64,000 nucleotides of DNA, taken from the NCBI GenBank assembly GCA_014381505.1, contig JACNLK010000028.1:1-64000 (forward strand), read 5' to 3'. The translations under genes were made by a program, and so were the position numbers. Positions 22,650 through 33,717 of this stretch are shown here, in pieces. The notes beneath the pieces are model-generated. The model saw nothing but the letters and a program-made list of their open reading frames with translations. It was not told the DNA's origin and did no database searches. The number at the start of each line of letters is the position of its first letter. The first letter of the stretch is position 1. Origin of the DNA: Candidatus Desulfatifera sulfidica. GTDB lineage: Bacteria; Desulfobacterota; Desulfobulbia; Desulfobulbales; Desulfocapsaceae.

Positions 22650-24461
22650 ATGTTTCTGCGCCTTTTCTTGTTATTATTTGTCAGTTTTGTTTCTTTGCCG
22701 GTCGCCGAGGTCTTTGCTGCCCATGGTGTATCCATCGATGGTCAACTCAAATATCCCGCCGACTTTGAACGTTTTGATTATACATCCTCCGCTGCTCAAA
22801 GAGGTGGGAGCCTGGTTCTTCATGATCTTGGCAGCTTTGATAAGATGAACCCGTTTACTCTCAAGGGGACGGCACCTTTTGGCCTCGATCGTTTAGTTTT
22901 TGAAACACTGGCCGTTTCCAGTCTTGATGAGCCTTTTGCGGCATACGGATTAATTGCCAAAGACATCGCAGTTGCCGCAGATCACCTTTCGGTGACTTTT
23001 ACCCTGGATGAGCGGGCTCGTTTCAGTGATGGGAGTCCGGTCACGGTCGAGGATGTCAAATTTTCCATTGAGACATTAAAGAGTGACCAGGTCCATCCGT
23101 TTTACCCCTATTATTATCAGGATATCAGTGAAGCCGAGATTCTTGATAAGCAGAGAATTCGTTTCAATTTTGCTCGTGCCAATCGTGAACTGCACATGAT
23201 AGCAGCCCAGATCCCTGTTTTGTCCCAGGTCTTTTATGAGAAGCACGGCTTTGCCCCTGCTTCTGGATCCGAGGTCATGGCTCCACCTCTGGGTTCAGGT
23301 CCATACGTTGTCGATACAGTGAAGCAGGGGAAATCGATTACATACAGGCGAAATCCCGATTATTGGGCAAAGGATCATCCGACACGGATTGGTCAGTTCA
23401 ATTTTGACCGACTGACTGTCAATTATTACAAAGATCAAATTGTATCCGTTGAGGCCTTCAAGGCTCGTGAGTTTGATTTTATGCTGGTTAATATTGCCAA
23501 ACAATGGGCCCGTGACATGCAGGGTGACAAGTTTAGCAATGGTTCAATAGTAAAGGAGGTCTTTCCTCACCACAACAATGCCGGCATACAGGGATTTCTC
23601 ATGAACACAAGACGTCCCAACTTTGAAGACCGGCGTGTTCGCCAGGCGTTAGGATTGGCCATGGACTTTGAATGGACCAACAACGCTCTTTTTTTTAATC
23701 AGTACCGTCGCAGCCATTCTTATTTCAGCAATTCACCATTGGCGGCCTCAGGGCTTCCTGTGGGTCTGGAACTGGATTATCTCGAGCCTTTTCGCTCGAG
23801 TTTACCTGCCGAGGTCTTTTCAACTCCACCCACATCGCCTGAAACCAAAGGACGAGGTGGCCTGCGTACGAATCTCCGTCAGGCCAAACAGCTCCTGGAA
23901 GATGCAGGGTGGCAGGTTCAGGACGGAGTCTTGCGAAACGATCAGGGTGAGTCTTTTCAGTTTGAAATCCTTTTGGTCTCTCCCTCTTTTGAGCGGGTCA
24001 TGGCGCCCTATGTCAAAAATCTGGAGAAACTGGGGATTCGGGCAGACTATCGGACCATTGATCCGGCCCTGTACGCTGACCGTTTGCAACATTTCGATTT
24101 TGATATGATTGTTCAGGTTTATGGTCAATCTCAATCACCCGGTAATGAGCAGCGTAATTACTGGCATTCTGAATCAGCTGCCACCAAGGGATCTCGTAAC
24201 CTTGCCGGCATCAATAACCCGGCAGTTGATGCCATGGTTGAACGGATTATTTACGCCAAAACCCAGGAAGAACTGACCGCTGCCTGTCGAGCACTGGATC
24301 GGGTACTCTGGTATGGCTATTATCTTGTGCCAAACTGGTTCATGGATGGCCATCGCATTGCCTATCACAATCTCTTTGCCCGCCCTGAACAGCTCCCCCT
24401 TTATTATGATTCTTATCAGCTCCTGATGACCTGGTGGTGGCGTGAGGCCAAAGGCGACTAG
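22650..24461 (+). CDS. Extracellular solute-binding protein family 5 (YejA/microcin C-type)
   Basis: Signal peptide; HGVSIDGQLKYPADFERFDYTSSAAQRGGSLVLHDLGSFDKMNPF; FSDGSPVTVEDVKFSIETLK; QALGLAMDFEWTNNALFFNQYRR. Confidence 0.9.
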   Translation: MFLRLFLLLFVSFVSLPVAEVFAAHGVSIDGQLKYPADFERFDYTSSAAQRGGSLVLHDLGSFDKMNPFTLKGTAPFGLDRLVFETLAVSSLDEPFAAYGLIAKDIAVAADHLSVTFTLDERARFSDGSPVTVEDVKFSIETLKSDQVHPFYPYYYQDISEAEILDKQRIRFNFARANRELHMIAAQIPVLSQVFYEKHGFAPASGSEVMAPPLGSGPYVVDTVKQGKSITYRRNPDYWAKDHPTRIGQFNFDRLTVNYYKDQIVSVEAFKAREFDFMLVNIAKQWARDMQGDKFSNGSIVKEVFPHHNNAGIQGFLMNTRRPNFEDRRVRQALGLAMDFEWTNNALFFNQYRRSHSYFSNSPLAASGLPVGLELDYLEPFRSSLPAEVFSTPPTSPETKGRGGLRTNLRQAKQLLEDAGWQVQDGVLRNDQGESFQFEILLVSPSFERVMAPYVKNLEKLGIRADYRTIDPALYADRLQHFDFDMIVQVYGQSQSPGNEQRNYWHSESAATKGSRNLAGINNPAVDAMVERIIYAKTQEELTAACRALDRVLWYGYYLVPNWFMDGHRIAYHNLFARPEQLPLYYDSYQLLMTWWWREAKGD

Positions 24462-24503: not shown

Positions 24504-24594
24504 ACCGTCATCCCGGCAGGCTGTAAGCCGGGATCCAGTAACGTGAATAGGCCTAATTCCTGGATTCCGGCTTACAGCCTGCCCGAATGACGAA
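24504..24594. repeat. REP-like palindromic repeat (GTCATCCCGGCAGGCTGTAAGCCGGGATCCAG ... inverted)
   Basis: Left arm CGTCATCCCGGCAGGCTGTAAGCCGGGATCCAG is inverted in TGGATTCCGGCTTACAGCCTGCCCGAATGACG with only a few mismatches. Confidence 0.85.
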
Positions 24595-24791: not shown

Positions 24792-25640
24792 ATGATGCGT
24801 GTTTTGTCACTACTCCTTTCTGTCACCTTGTGGATCGCTCTGTCGTTTGACGGGAGTTGGGCCCAAACACAGACACATCCCTGTGAGCCCACTGATCTGC
24901 TGATCTGCGGTACAGGTGACTCGCAACGGCTCTTTCGTCGGCTCGCCGAGGCCTTTGAGCATATCCATCCTGAAATCCAGATTAATGTCCCCATGTCCAT
25001 CGGTTCCAGCGGTGGCATCAAGGCCGTGGCGGCTGGTAAATGCGATTTTGGCCGCGTGGCACGGCCATTGAATGATAAAGAAAAACGATATGGTCTCTAT
25101 TATCTGGCCATTGCCCAGGCACCAGTGGTCTTTGTGGCCAACGAAAGTGTTGAGGGAATCACCGATCTCAGCGAAGAAGAGGTTGTCGGCATTTACTCCG
25201 GCACCATAACCGACTGGCAGAAACTGGGGGGGACGGCCGGCAAGATCTACGTTGCGAACCGGGAAAAGGGGGATGCCTCCCGGAGTGTAATTGAAGAAAA
25301 AGTACCAGCTTTCAATGAGATTGAATCCTTTGCGGGAAAGATCATCTACACCACCCCTGAGACCATTGCAATCATAGTCAAACACGAGGGGACCGTTGGG
25401 TATACCAATTTGACCCAGATTGAGCATCACGAAGGACTTAAGGTCTTTACTTTTGCCGATGTCGCCCCTACAACAGATCATATCCAGGCTGGCCGTTACC
25501 CTCTGCTAATCCCTCTTGGTCTGGTCTGGAGTGAAGGACTTGGTTCTGCCGGCAGGGAGTTCCTGAAATTCCTCTCTTCTCCTGAGGCCCGCGAGGTGAT
25601 GTTTGAACACGGTACTGTACCCATCAGTAACGGATCCTGA
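24792..25640 (+). CDS. PstS-like (PBP-like_2) periplasmic substrate-binding protein
   Basis: Signal peptide; LLICGTGDSQRLFRRLAEAFEHIHPEIQINVPMSIGSSGGIKAVAAGKCDFGRVARPL; LSEEEVVGIYSGTITDWQKLGG; VPISNGS end. Confidence 0.85.
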   Translation: MMRVLSLLLSVTLWIALSFDGSWAQTQTHPCEPTDLLICGTGDSQRLFRRLAEAFEHIHPEIQINVPMSIGSSGGIKAVAAGKCDFGRVARPLNDKEKRYGLYYLAIAQAPVVFVANESVEGITDLSEEEVVGIYSGTITDWQKLGGTAGKIYVANREKGDASRSVIEEKVPAFNEIESFAGKIIYTTPETIAIIVKHEGTVGYTNLTQIEHHEGLKVFTFADVAPTTDHIQAGRYPLLIPLGLVWSEGLGSAGREFLKFLSSPEAREVMFEHGTVPISNGS

Positions 25641-25641
25641 T

Positions 25642-27591
25642 ATGTTCAAGTCTCTCAAGAGTATCCTGTTTTTTTCCCACACCGGGATTATCTCCTTGGC
25701 CATTCTGGTCCTGGCGGTCGTTTTTTTTCCCCTGATGACTGACCAACTAGAAGAACGAGAAAAGAAACAGCTGCAATTTATAGTTGAGCACGGCGCAGAT
25801 CATATTAAGAGTTATTTTCGCCACCATACTGATCTCATAGAGCAGATAGCTGATCAACCGCTGGTGTATGATTATCTTGATCATTACCGTGAACTGGGTC
25901 TGATTGCCCATCTCGCCTCTTTCCAGGACGATCTGCCGGTGATCAGTTATATCGGGCCGGATGGTTTTGAGCAGGTGAGGGTCGAGCAGGGCAGGTCTGT
26001 CGAGAGAAAAGTCAGTTACCGGGATGCCCCCTTTTTTCAGCAGGCCATGGCCCGACCCAATGAGGTGCTCGTTTTCCAGGATCCTGCGCTGCAGGAAAAT
26101 GGAGAGTCGGTCATCTTTCTGGCCTATGCCAAATACCACTACTTTGGTGATGATTTTGCCGGACTGCTCCTGGCCCGCGTGCCCCTGAGACAGGTTGCCG
26201 AGAACCTCCTGCAGCTTGAGATAGGCTCCACCGGTTTTCTGATTCTGGAGGATGAAACCGGACATGCGTTGCAGATTTTTTCCCAAAAGAACGGGAAGGG
26301 ATATAAGGTCCTTGGTCTCGATGCACCCTATGGGCGGGGGGAACTGGCTCATGAAGATGCCTTTTTTGGCCGCTGTGAAGTCCTTGGTCGGGACGCCTTT
26401 TTGACCCATACTCATCTTGACGAGTATCCCATTCGCCTCTGGGCGGTTATCGCCTACGATGAGTTGATGGCCGGAGCCACAAAGCTGCAACGTTACACCC
26501 TGAGCATCTTTGGGATGGTCCTTGTCCTGGCTCTGCTTGTCTCCTATCTCTTGGCCCACAACATCACCACGCCGCTGATTAAGCTCAACCTGGCGGCTCG
26601 GGTGGTTGCCCGGGGTAAGACCCCTGAACTCATTCAGTTGCATTCACGCAATGAGGTGGGCAACCTGGTGGAGTCTTTTAATACCATGATCGCCAATCTT
26701 CGTAACACCACCGTCTCACGGGATTACTACAATACCATTGTCACCTCCATGCGTGAGAGTCTTATTGTTCTTGATATGGAGGGTAGAATCCAGAGCGTCA
26801 ATACGGCGACCTCCGCCTTGCTCGGTTATGATTCAGCTGAACTGATTGGCATCCCTTTGAACAATATCCTGCGTCTGGATCAGGGTGATGTACAACAGCT
26901 CATGGGAAGACTGTGCTGTGGCCAGGTGATGGCAAATCGTGAATTGATCTATCTGGCCAGAGACGGGCGGGAGGTTTCGGTCCTGTTCAATGCCGCTCCC
27001 ATGGAGGATCAAGACCTTGTTGTCCATGGGATCGTCTGCGTGGCCGTTGACATGACCGAACGCAACCGGACTCTTGAAGAATTGAGGCAGAGTCAGGCCC
27101 GGCTGGAACAGCTCTCGATTACAGATGAACTCACTGGCCTGTTCAATCGGCGTGGATTTCTAACCATGGCTGAAAAGCAGTTACAGGTGGCCAATCGGAG
27201 TAAAGATGTTCTCTTTCTGCTGTTCATGGATGTGGATGGCCTCAAGGAGGTCAATGACACCCTTGGCCATCAGGTCGGTGATACCCTGATTGCTGACGCG
27301 GCAGACCTGTTGCGCACCACCTTCCGCGACGCGGATATTGTCGCCCGTATGGGTGGTGATGAATTTGCTGTCCTGCTCGTCAATAGTGGAGACGAAGATG
27401 TGATCAGACGACGACTGAAAGACAGGCTTGCCACTTTTAACCAGGAAATGCAACGTCCCTATGATATCTCAATCAGTTACGGCATGGCCGCGTATGATCC
27501 GGCTGCGCCCTGTCGCCTGGATGACCTTCTGTCCCGGGCCGATTCTTTAATGTACGAGCAGAAGATCTTGAAAAAACAGAGGACTCCATGA
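25642..27591 (+). CDS. Membrane diguanylate cyclase: periplasmic sensor (Cache-like) - HAMP - PAS - GGDEF
   Basis: Two TM segments flanking a ~270 aa periplasmic region, HAMP (LLAHNITTPLIKLNLAARVVARG), PAS (VTSMRESLIVLDMEGRIQSVNTATSALLGY), I-site RDAD and GGDEF in RDADIVARMGGDEFAVLL; ATG 25642 follows the previous stop directly. Confidence 0.93.
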   Translation: MFKSLKSILFFSHTGIISLAILVLAVVFFPLMTDQLEEREKKQLQFIVEHGADHIKSYFRHHTDLIEQIADQPLVYDYLDHYRELGLIAHLASFQDDLPVISYIGPDGFEQVRVEQGRSVERKVSYRDAPFFQQAMARPNEVLVFQDPALQENGESVIFLAYAKYHYFGDDFAGLLLARVPLRQVAENLLQLEIGSTGFLILEDETGHALQIFSQKNGKGYKVLGLDAPYGRGELAHEDAFFGRCEVLGRDAFLTHTHLDEYPIRLWAVIAYDELMAGATKLQRYTLSIFGMVLVLALLVSYLLAHNITTPLIKLNLAARVVARGKTPELIQLHSRNEVGNLVESFNTMIANLRNTTVSRDYYNTIVTSMRESLIVLDMEGRIQSVNTATSALLGYDSAELIGIPLNNILRLDQGDVQQLMGRLCCGQVMANRELIYLARDGREVSVLFNAAPMEDQDLVVHGIVCVAVDMTERNRTLEELRQSQARLEQLSITDELTGLFNRRGFLTMAEKQLQVANRSKDVLFLLFMDVDGLKEVNDTLGHQVGDTLIADAADLLRTTFRDADIVARMGGDEFAVLLVNSGDEDVIRRRLKDRLATFNQEMQRPYDISISYGMAAYDPAAPCRLDDLLSRADSLMYEQKILKKQRTP

Positions 27592-30737: not shown

Positions 30738-31538
30738 TCAGTGCGACTTGTGGGGCACCATCACCGCACAGCTGTCCAATTGATGGATCGCGACCTCCAG
30801 GCCATACACCTCCCGAATCATTTCCGGGTTGATATCCTCAACCTGTCCGTGGGCAAAGATCTTACCATCTTTCAGCAGAAGAAATTTGTGGGCAAAGCGC
30901 ATGGCCAGATTGAGGTCATGCAGGGTGAGGACTGCGGCCATTTCGTGCCCATGCACCACTCTCTGCAGCAGGCCAAGAATTTCATATTGATTTTTCACAT
31001 CCAGGGCGCTGGTGGGTTCATCCAAGAGCAGCAGACGCGGTTCCTGAACCAAGGCCCGTGCAATGGCCGTCTTTTGTAACTCTCCGCCACTGAGCTGGTT
31101 GATGGGTCGCATGGCCAGCTGATTCAGCCCCAGATGTTCCAATGCCGCACCTACCATGCGCAGATCCTTGTCTGCCACCCGCCAGCCAAGATGTGGCCTT
31201 CGCCCCATGAGCACCGCATCAAAGACAGTCAGGCCTGCCGTGGCGTTTTGCTGGGCCACATAGGCGATCCGGCGTGCCACATCATTGGCACTCATCTCTC
31301 GCACCTCCTCGTTATTGACTAATATCCGTCCGGAAGCTGGCCTGTGAATCAAATTAACACATCTGAGCAAGGTGGTTTTGCCCGCGCCGTTTGGTCCCAG
31401 AATAGCCAGAATCTCTCCCTCCCCGACCTTGAAACTGATACGATCAAGAACTGTGCGATTGCCATAGGTAAACGACAGGTCCTGGACTTCCAGGGTACGT
31501 GGGGTCGGTGAGGTCAGTGAAGGGGCAGGGCTCAGCAT
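30738..31538 (-). CDS. Iron-chelate/cobalamin-type ABC transporter ATP-binding protein
   Basis: Walker A GPNGAGKTTLL, signature LSGGELQKTAIARAL, LLLLDEPTSALD; FepC/BtuD-like. Confidence 0.93.
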   Translation of the reverse strand: MLSPAPSLTSPTPRTLEVQDLSFTYGNRTVLDRISFKVGEGEILAILGPNGAGKTTLLRCVNLIHRPASGRILVNNEEVREMSANDVARRIAYVAQQNATAGLTVFDAVLMGRRPHLGWRVADKDLRMVGAALEHLGLNQLAMRPINQLSGGELQKTAIARALVQEPRLLLLDEPTSALDVKNQYEILGLLQRVVHGHEMAAVLTLHDLNLAMRFAHKFLLLKDGKIFAHGQVEDINPEMIREVYGLEVAIHQLDSCAVMVPHKSH

Positions 31539-32602
31539 GATTTTTTACGGATGATGAGATAGAGGAGAAGCGGGGCGCCCATAAAGGCAGTAAGGATAGA
31601 GACTGGCAAGACATGGGGGGCCAGCAGAAGGCGCGCGGCTGTGTCTGAGATCAGAAGCAACAGGCCACCGCCAACCAGGGTGGCCGGGAGCAGGAAGCGG
31701 TGATCTGCACCGATCAGGCTGCGGATCAGATGCGGCACCACCAGTCCCACAAAACCAATGATCCCAAGGAGCGAGACGATGATAGCCGTGAGCAGCGTGG
31801 CCAGGAACATGGTGATCAGGCGCAGCCGATCAACACGGACACCGAGTCCCTTGGCGGCCTCATCGCCGATATCAATGATATTGTAATTCCAGCTGTTGGC
31901 AATGAAGTAGACTGTTGCAAGCAGGGTAGCCCCGGCAATGAGTGCAATTCCGGGCCAGGAGGCGCGCGTGGTATCGCCAAAGGTCCAGAAGACCATGGCA
32001 GCCAGCTGGACGTCATCTGCAAAGAACTGCAGGAACATGGTTCCTGCGGTGAACAGGGCGCCAAGGCCCACACCGGTGAGGATCATGGTTTCTGGAGTGG
32101 TTCCGCGAAGTCGAGAAACCGCGATGATTACAGCGGCAGCACTGAGGCTGAATACAAAGGCCAGGGATGTGGTTAAAAAAGAGGGGAGCAGGGTAAAAAT
32201 ACCTTCGGGAAGGGCGGTTGGTTCGGTGCGGCTCAGGAGCATAACACCCAAGGCGGCACCGAAGGCGGCACCATGGGAAATCCCCAGTGTGAAAGGGGAG
32301 CCCAGTGGATTACGGAGAATAGACTGCATCACCGCACCGGCAATAGCCAGTCCTGCTCCGGCGCTGACGGCGGCCAGAGCCTGGGGCAACCTGATCTGGC
32401 GGATAATATGGGAATAGGTTGCGTTGCTGTCTAGTCCTAGGAGTGTCTTGGTCACAGAAAGAAGAGGGATGTCTGCGGCTCCCAGAGACAGGGAGAAGAA
32501 GATGCCCCCCACCAGGCCCGTGCACAGAATAAGAATTGCGATGCGCTGACGGCGCAGATGGCGCAGGTAGGCTGGAGAGAGCTGGCCGTGATTGAGATGC
32601 AT
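31532..32602 (-). CDS. FecCD-family ABC transporter permease
   Basis: IRLPQALAAVSAGAGLAIAGAVMQSILRNPLGSPFTLGISHGAAFGA; GIIGFVGLVVPHLIRSLIGADHR. Confidence 0.95.
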   Translation of the reverse strand: MHLNHGQLSPAYLRHLRRQRIAILILCTGLVGGIFFSLSLGAADIPLLSVTKTLLGLDSNATYSHIIRQIRLPQALAAVSAGAGLAIAGAVMQSILRNPLGSPFTLGISHGAAFGAALGVMLLSRTEPTALPEGIFTLLPSFLTTSLAFVFSLSAAAVIIAVSRLRGTTPETMILTGVGLGALFTAGTMFLQFFADDVQLAAMVFWTFGDTTRASWPGIALIAGATLLATVYFIANSWNYNIIDIGDEAAKGLGVRVDRLRLITMFLATLLTAIIVSLLGIIGFVGLVVPHLIRSLIGADHRFLLPATLVGGGLLLLISDTAARLLLAPHVLPVSILTAFMGAPLLLYLIIRKKSC

Positions 32603-32616
32603 GGTGAAAGTCTTTG

Positions 32617-33717
32617 TTAATCCAGGGGAATGGTCGTCAGGGCGAGATCGCGGCCCTGCTGATTAAGCTGGTTAAAAAGCGGCGTTCCCAGCAGAAAATT
32701 GAAAATCTCATCGGCCTTGCTCCGGGGATCGATATCCTTGAATTGCTCGGGGTAGAGCGTCTTGCCGACAAAATAGGCATTGGACAGTATAGATCCGTAA
32801 TTCTTGCCGTACCAGTTGTGGGGGAGCAGACCATAGACCTGTCCTGTTTCAACGGCGTCCAATGTATGATAGAGGTGATTGTTGCGGAGCTGTTGAAAAC
32901 CATTCTTTTGATTTTGCTGCGAACTGGCCAGGTCAAAAAACAGGAAGTCCGGGTTGCGGATGAGGAGATGTTCCCGATCCATGTCTGCCTGGCTGAGTCT
33001 TCGATTAGAAGGACTTGCTGCGATGTTTTGTGCGTTGACCAGGGCAAAGGGAAGGTAGTTGGGGTCTGTGGAAAGCAGTCCACGTGAGCCTTTGAAGGCG
33101 ATACCACCAACAAAGGCCCTGTGCTGCTGATCAGGAACGATTGATGCTGTGCGAGTGTTCAGATCTTTGAGGATGTGATCAATATATTCGATGACTGATT
33201 CGCCCCGCTCCTGGCGGCCTGTTATTTGGGCCATGAGGCGCAGCGAGCGGTAGAGTTGTTCCCGATGAGAGTCCAGATCGCCATCGTCAAGGACGATGAC
33301 TGGAATTCCGGTCTTGTGTTGCAGGGCTATGGGATCGTGCCCCATGCTGGCAGCGGCCTTAAAAATAATCTGCGGAAGTGGCGTAAGGCCCAGGATAAGT
33401 TCGGGCTGATCCTGCCCGCGCAAACCGCCAAAAACAGGCAGTGTACTCAGGGCAGGATAGGCCAGGGCGTAAGGACGGGGGTCAAATGAATCTTCTCGTA
33501 CCTCCATTTCATCGACACCAACCACCATCTGGGTCAGTTGGAGATAACTGAGCAGGCGCAGGCAGCCCGGCCCTGAACAGATCACCCGTTCTATTGTGGC
33601 TGGAACCTTTAACTGACGGCCAGCAAGATCAGTGATTTTTTGCATTTCCTGAGCAACACTGGAGGTGGCCGGGAGCAAAAAAAGCACAGTAGTGAGTAAG
33701 GTGAGCAAGGAGGACAT
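32617..33717 (-). CDS. Iron-chelate-type ABC transporter substrate-binding protein
   Basis: Signal peptide; ITDLAGRQLKVPATIERVICSGPGCLRLLSYL; NWYGKNYGSILSNAYFVGKTLYPEQF. Confidence 0.9.
   Translation of the reverse strand: MSSLLTLLTTVLFLLPATSSVAQEMQKITDLAGRQLKVPATIERVICSGPGCLRLLSYLQLTQMVVGVDEMEVREDSFDPRPYALAYPALSTLPVFGGLRGQDQPELILGLTPLPQIIFKAAASMGHDPIALQHKTGIPVIVLDDGDLDSHREQLYRSLRLMAQITGRQERGESVIEYIDHILKDLNTRTASIVPDQQHRAFVGGIAFKGSRGLLSTDPNYLPFALVNAQNIAASPSNRRLSQADMDREHLLIRNPDFLFFDLASSQQNQKNGFQQLRNNHLYHTLDAVETGQVYGLLPHNWYGKNYGSILSNAYFVGKTLYPEQFKDIDPRSKADEIFNFLLGTPLFNQLNQQGRDLALTTIPLD

Follow-up and report, generated by a model that had tools for sequence, protein, structure and literature searches.

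The window analysed here, 64,000 nucleotides of Candidatus Desulfatifera sulfidica (contig JACNLK010000028.1, positions 1 to 64,000 of the forward strand), encodes on its plus strand a PstS-like periplasmic solute-binding protein (SBP) immediately followed by a receptor with a diguanylate cyclase (GGDEF) domain. The SBP (24792–25640, 282 aa) matches Pfam PBP_like_2 (3.5e-29; 102.8 bits, above the curated cut-off of 27) and starts with a Sec-type signal peptide without lipobox at about residues 1–24 (24792–24863), recognised by eye and present as an N-terminal helix in the structural model. This AlphaFold2 (AF2) model has a mean pLDDT of 91.6, and its best match in the PDB is 4gd5, a phosphate-bound PstS (TM-score 0.89 by target). 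One base separates the SBP stop from the cyclase start, and the two genes form an operon.

The cyclase (649 aa) extends from an ATG at 25642 to a stop ending at 27591 and has two transmembrane (TM) helices. Between them AlphaFold places a double-PAS fold, a periplasmic dCache-type sensor domain at about residues 34–281 (25741–26484; AF2 pLDDT 87.1), which Foldseek matches to the dCache domains 3lid, PctA, Mlp37, and 2p7j. The Pfam dCache_1 match of this receptor stays below the cut-off (23.5 vs 45 bits), which the orthologues at loci L036 (77 bits) and L158 (50 bits) exceed. There follow a HAMP domain (residues 303–354, 26548–26703, 4e-10), a PAS domain (PAS_4, residues 369–475, 26746–27066, 6.9e-15), and the GGDEF catalytic domain (27118–27570, 3.3e-37, also found in the genome search), all above the Pfam cut-offs. 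The segment RDADIVARMGGDEF contains an intact GG[DE]EF motif (27352–27366) and, at the standard spacing of five residues upstream, an RxxD inhibitory site (27325–27336), an arrangement that recurs in eight of the nine other cyclase partners described below. On these motifs the receptor is a predicted diguanylate cyclase. The original prediction, made from the sequence and its open reading frames (ORFs), had described a secreted PBP-like_2 protein ending at 25640 and, 1 bp later, a two-TM sensor-HAMP-PAS-GGDEF protein with intact GGDEF and RxxD sites; the domains and positions found here agree with it.

Conservation and co-divergence of the binding protein and its receptor

A first homologue search in 58 relatives, with a reading of gene neighbourhoods, places the closest SBP homologues next to two-TM receptors. 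A profile (A1) built from 15 receptor-adjacent SBPs was then used to search 395 genomes of the phylum and 258 of the order; a class-level run drew on the same sample as the order-level one. Among the fetched loci, 63 SBPs reach 257 bits or more, the window SBP being one of them. All but L048, whose place in the tree is elsewhere, form a clade of 62. The sampling comprises one phylum and one Bradyrhizobium plasmid, where the single relative from outside the phylum lies beside a divergently oriented GGDEF-EAL protein. The gene pair on which the original prediction was built is conserved in relatives: for 60 of the 62 clade SBPs the next gene downstream on the same strand encodes a two-TM receptor, with TM segments typically near residues 5 and 280 and a median gap of 6.5 nt (longest-ORF starts). 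The distribution of the clade is patchy, as it is found in 44 of the 258 genomes of the order.

The receptors differ in their outputs. Histidine kinases, with or without a receiver, are the most frequent (43), followed by GGDEF proteins (10) and methyl-accepting chemotaxis proteins (MCP; 4), with no output recognised in three. The window SBP belongs to a subclade of 12 rows, with ten cyclase and two kinase partners. On the SBP tree the cyclase label changes at least four times on starred branches, and all output labels together require 20 changes, against 41 in shuffles. At three loci (L041, L042, and L045) a GGDEF-domain protein is encoded after the SBP-kinase pair, with the architecture receiver-DUF3369-GGDEF in L041; c-di-GMP (cyclic di-GMP) may thus be the output of kinase versions too. 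Some SBPs are longer, about 575 aa (L040:4028-5749, and also L154, L155, L165, and L170-L172). In L040 the PstS-like domain is preceded by a fused ABC_sub_bind domain (PF04392), and a hybrid kinase still adjoins; such a protein possibly has two ligand inputs.

Distances among SBPs correlate with those among the periplasmic regions of their receptors (r = 0.915 for 61 pairs; 0/2000 permutations) more closely than with those among the next 200 receptor residues, which cover the HAMP/PAS region (r = 0.795 for 61 pairs). The closer fit to the periplasmic region than to the cytoplasmic one suggests contact between SBP and receptor. When paralogues are compared within genomes, which removes species history, the fit is better with the true partner than with the swapped paralogue in 14 of 14 comparisons. 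With the linkage in 60 of 62 loci, this co-divergence shows the SBP and its two-TM receptor to be co-encoded and conserved together.

Several observations weigh against a signalling partnership of the two. Matching SBP and receptor trees can partly reflect co-inheritance in an operon, and this includes the within-genome test. Two clade SBPs (L047 and L192) have no receptor directly downstream; at L047 the opposite strand encodes an MCP and a CheB-CheR fusion. Reciprocally, a profile of the sensor domain (at least 80 bits, in the order) retrieves 53 receptors, of which 46 have an intact SBP neighbour, a fraction that leans upward because SBP-linked receptors were the source of the profile. The other seven, six without any SBP (three of them in one genus) and one with a remnant, suggest that some species may use the receptor without an SBP. 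The remnant, upstream of a receptor cyclase (L227:774-3201 in G625), is only 115 aa long and is broken or frameshifted.

Among the alternatives, the one that survives best is that the dCache domain binds a ligand of its own, the SBP being a co-expressed accessory (scavenger or concentrator) that makes no contact with the receptor. Direct ligand binding is indeed frequent among dCache domains, the receptor domain resembles amino-acid chemoreceptor domains by fold, and a minority of related receptors lack an SBP neighbour. Yet the positions of the amino-acid motif R-x-W-Y, read by eye, are not conserved among clade receptors, and the closest co-divergence of the SBP is with the receptor periplasmic domain. 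This alternative is improbable.

Separation from phosphate transport

Ten fetched PstS homologues with adjoining Pst permeases served as the transport reference. In the tree a branch with support 100/97 separates them from 89 rows, almost all of them receptor-linked; because loci were chosen by score, the ratio of the two is not a census. The 89 rows include a second, more distant SBP group, with receptors whose periplasmic loop is short (about 120 residues). This group corresponds to L092-L111, L115, and L118, most of which adjoin short-loop receptors. The window SBP scores below the NCBIfam cut-offs for PstS, both for TIGR02136 (103 vs 206.6 bits) and for TIGR00975 (34.4 vs 205 bits).

The alignment separates the two sets at positions that, judged from the sequence alignment to PstS and the known PstS site, probably lie at the phosphate site (residues 42, 88, and 161). 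Residue 42 is G in 62/62 clade SBPs and T in 10/10 permease-linked PstS; residue 161 is D in 62/62 and S in 10/10; and the adjacent residue 162 is S in 60 of 62 and G in 10/10. R88 is present in all 62, and R is not among the main residues of transport PstS at this position. R157 is common to both sets. The loop residues of the transporters (T42 and S161-G162-T163) are thus not those of the clade. In the second sensor group, G42 is found in 24/24 and D or E161 in 23/24. Given the invariant differences in the pocket (G42, R88, and D161), the ligand is probably other than plain phosphate; with an acidic residue replacing the serine that binds phosphate, ordinary phosphate is unlikely but not impossible. 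By linkage, pocket, and model score, the window SBP falls outside the transport PstS family.

The SBP might serve an ABC (ATP-binding cassette) permease encoded elsewhere, its place beside the cyclase being incidental. There are 13 permease-domain matches in the genome of the window, on other contigs, and unlinked SBPs do occur there: for the YejA-type SBP (SBP_bac_5) encoded immediately upstream of the pair (22650–24461), the likely permeases are two encoded on contig C2 (G000:C2:34924-36613). Against this, none of the 62 clade SBPs has a Pst permease directly downstream, 60 adjoin receptors, and the genome has a separate PstSCAB locus with its own PstS, Pst permeases, and ATPase on contig C101, together with PhoU and a kinase/regulator pair identified by eye. 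The original prediction had named a cognate permease set elsewhere that co-varies with the SBP as evidence that would count against it; these results address that point for the Pst permeases. It is thus very unlikely that the SBP feeds a remote transporter.

Genomic surroundings of the pair

The claim of the original prediction that no permease or ATPase genes lie nearby stands in part. A domain search gives no match to a BPD-type ABC permease on the window contig, but the YejA-type SBP adjoins upstream and an ABC set with its own binding protein (ATPase, permease, and binding protein, recognised by eye from the ORFs and seemingly of iron/cobalamin type) lies at 30738–33717 on the minus strand. 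The latter looks unrelated to the SBP-cyclase pair. Downstream, the cyclase stop overlaps the start of tsaE (27588).

Nearly all genomes of the order (226/258) carry the YejA-type gene, which marks it as adjoining the site and not as belonging to the unit. In many relatives tsaE comes immediately after it, with no SBP-receptor pair in between. In the genus of the window the SBP-cyclase pair lies between these two genes, and in another family a kinase-type SBP pair follows the same YejA-type gene. Lying between genes that are adjacent in relatives, the SBP-receptor pair moves as a unit. A three-gene cassette including the YejA-type SBP was considered and rejected, because of this wide distribution of the gene and because most fetched relatives have it without an adjoining pair. 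The stretch between the YejA-type gene and the SBP contains an inverted repeat (24506–24592) whose arms measure about 33 bp, and a partial further copy of an arm is present on contig C75. Chance neighbourhood, which has general gene density in its favour and nothing more, is refuted by a pair that is conserved across many families, swaps its outputs, and moves as a unit.

Proposed mechanism and known systems

The two genes very probably constitute a signalling unit in which the PstS-like SBP, dedicated to signalling, gates the downstream receptor cyclase. In the periplasm the secreted SBP would bind a small ligand, and in one state it would dock on the dCache domain of the receptor. The effect of docking would travel through TM2, HAMP, and PAS, reach the GGDEF domain, and alter c-di-GMP synthesis, in a direction that the model leaves free, with the RxxD site capping output through product inhibition. 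The SBP would thus serve signalling and not uptake. Gating through the periplasmic domain, with no transporter being fed, was the core of the original prediction, and it is supported by the linkage to receptors, the lack of adjoining Pst permeases, and the strongest coupling being with the periplasmic domain. It also named an oxyanion as a candidate ligand; the invariant pocket residues speak against ordinary phosphate in this role. For a broader scenario the chances seem even: a PstS-derived clade would have lost transport, gained a new, invariant pocket (G42, R88, and D161) that recognises some signal other than phosphate, and spread as an exchangeable module providing the input to cyclases, histidine kinases, and chemoreceptors.

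The inputs of c-di-GMP enzymes are mostly unknown, and this clade wires one SBP type to several output types, so that a single ligand screen would inform many receptors. G42 and D161 serve as sequence marks by which signalling PstS homologues can be told from transporting ones; automatic annotation likely labels both as phosphate-binding proteins.

Activation of receptors by SBPs, cyclases included, is established (PMC9602780, PMC11113362). According to a 2022 review, only SBP_bac_3 among the 27 PBP-clan families has been studied in c-di-GMP networks (PMC8846402), and the open-licence literature searched gave no description of a PstS-derived, sensor-dedicated, output-swapping family. The pair is real and conserved, and its family and ligand are apparently new.

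Four known systems come closest. The PstS of PstSCAB (PDB 4gd5, 1twy) shares fold and family with the window SBP; it differs in having T42 and S161 in the sampled transporters, instead of the G42 and D161 of all 62 clade members with their added R88 and no adjoining permease. In the ArtI-STM1987 system of Salmonella (reviewed in PMC8846402), an SBP is needed for the L-arginine response of a diguanylate cyclase with a periplasmic dCache_1 domain. Unlike the window SBP, ArtI putatively binds arginine and comes from a different SBP family, and it is not known to form a gene-neighbour unit with its cyclase. In NspS-MbaA of Vibrio cholerae and Sinorhizobium meliloti, as here, a transport-derived SBP is encoded directly upstream of a two-TM c-di-GMP enzyme; the genes overlap and signalling responds to polyamines (PMC9993111). 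However, NspS is PotD-like and MbaA a GGDEF-EAL protein, whereas the window SBP is PstS-like and its enzyme has GGDEF only. In Pseudomonas aeruginosa, PstS loaded with inorganic phosphate binds and stimulates the periplasmic domain of the receptor CtpL (PMC4926252), whereas the window SBP is a dedicated relative, distinct from PstS itself, and its pocket residues are changed. By analogy, the window pair would work like NspS-MbaA, ArtI-STM1987, and PstS-CtpL, and its mechanism would belong to a known class.
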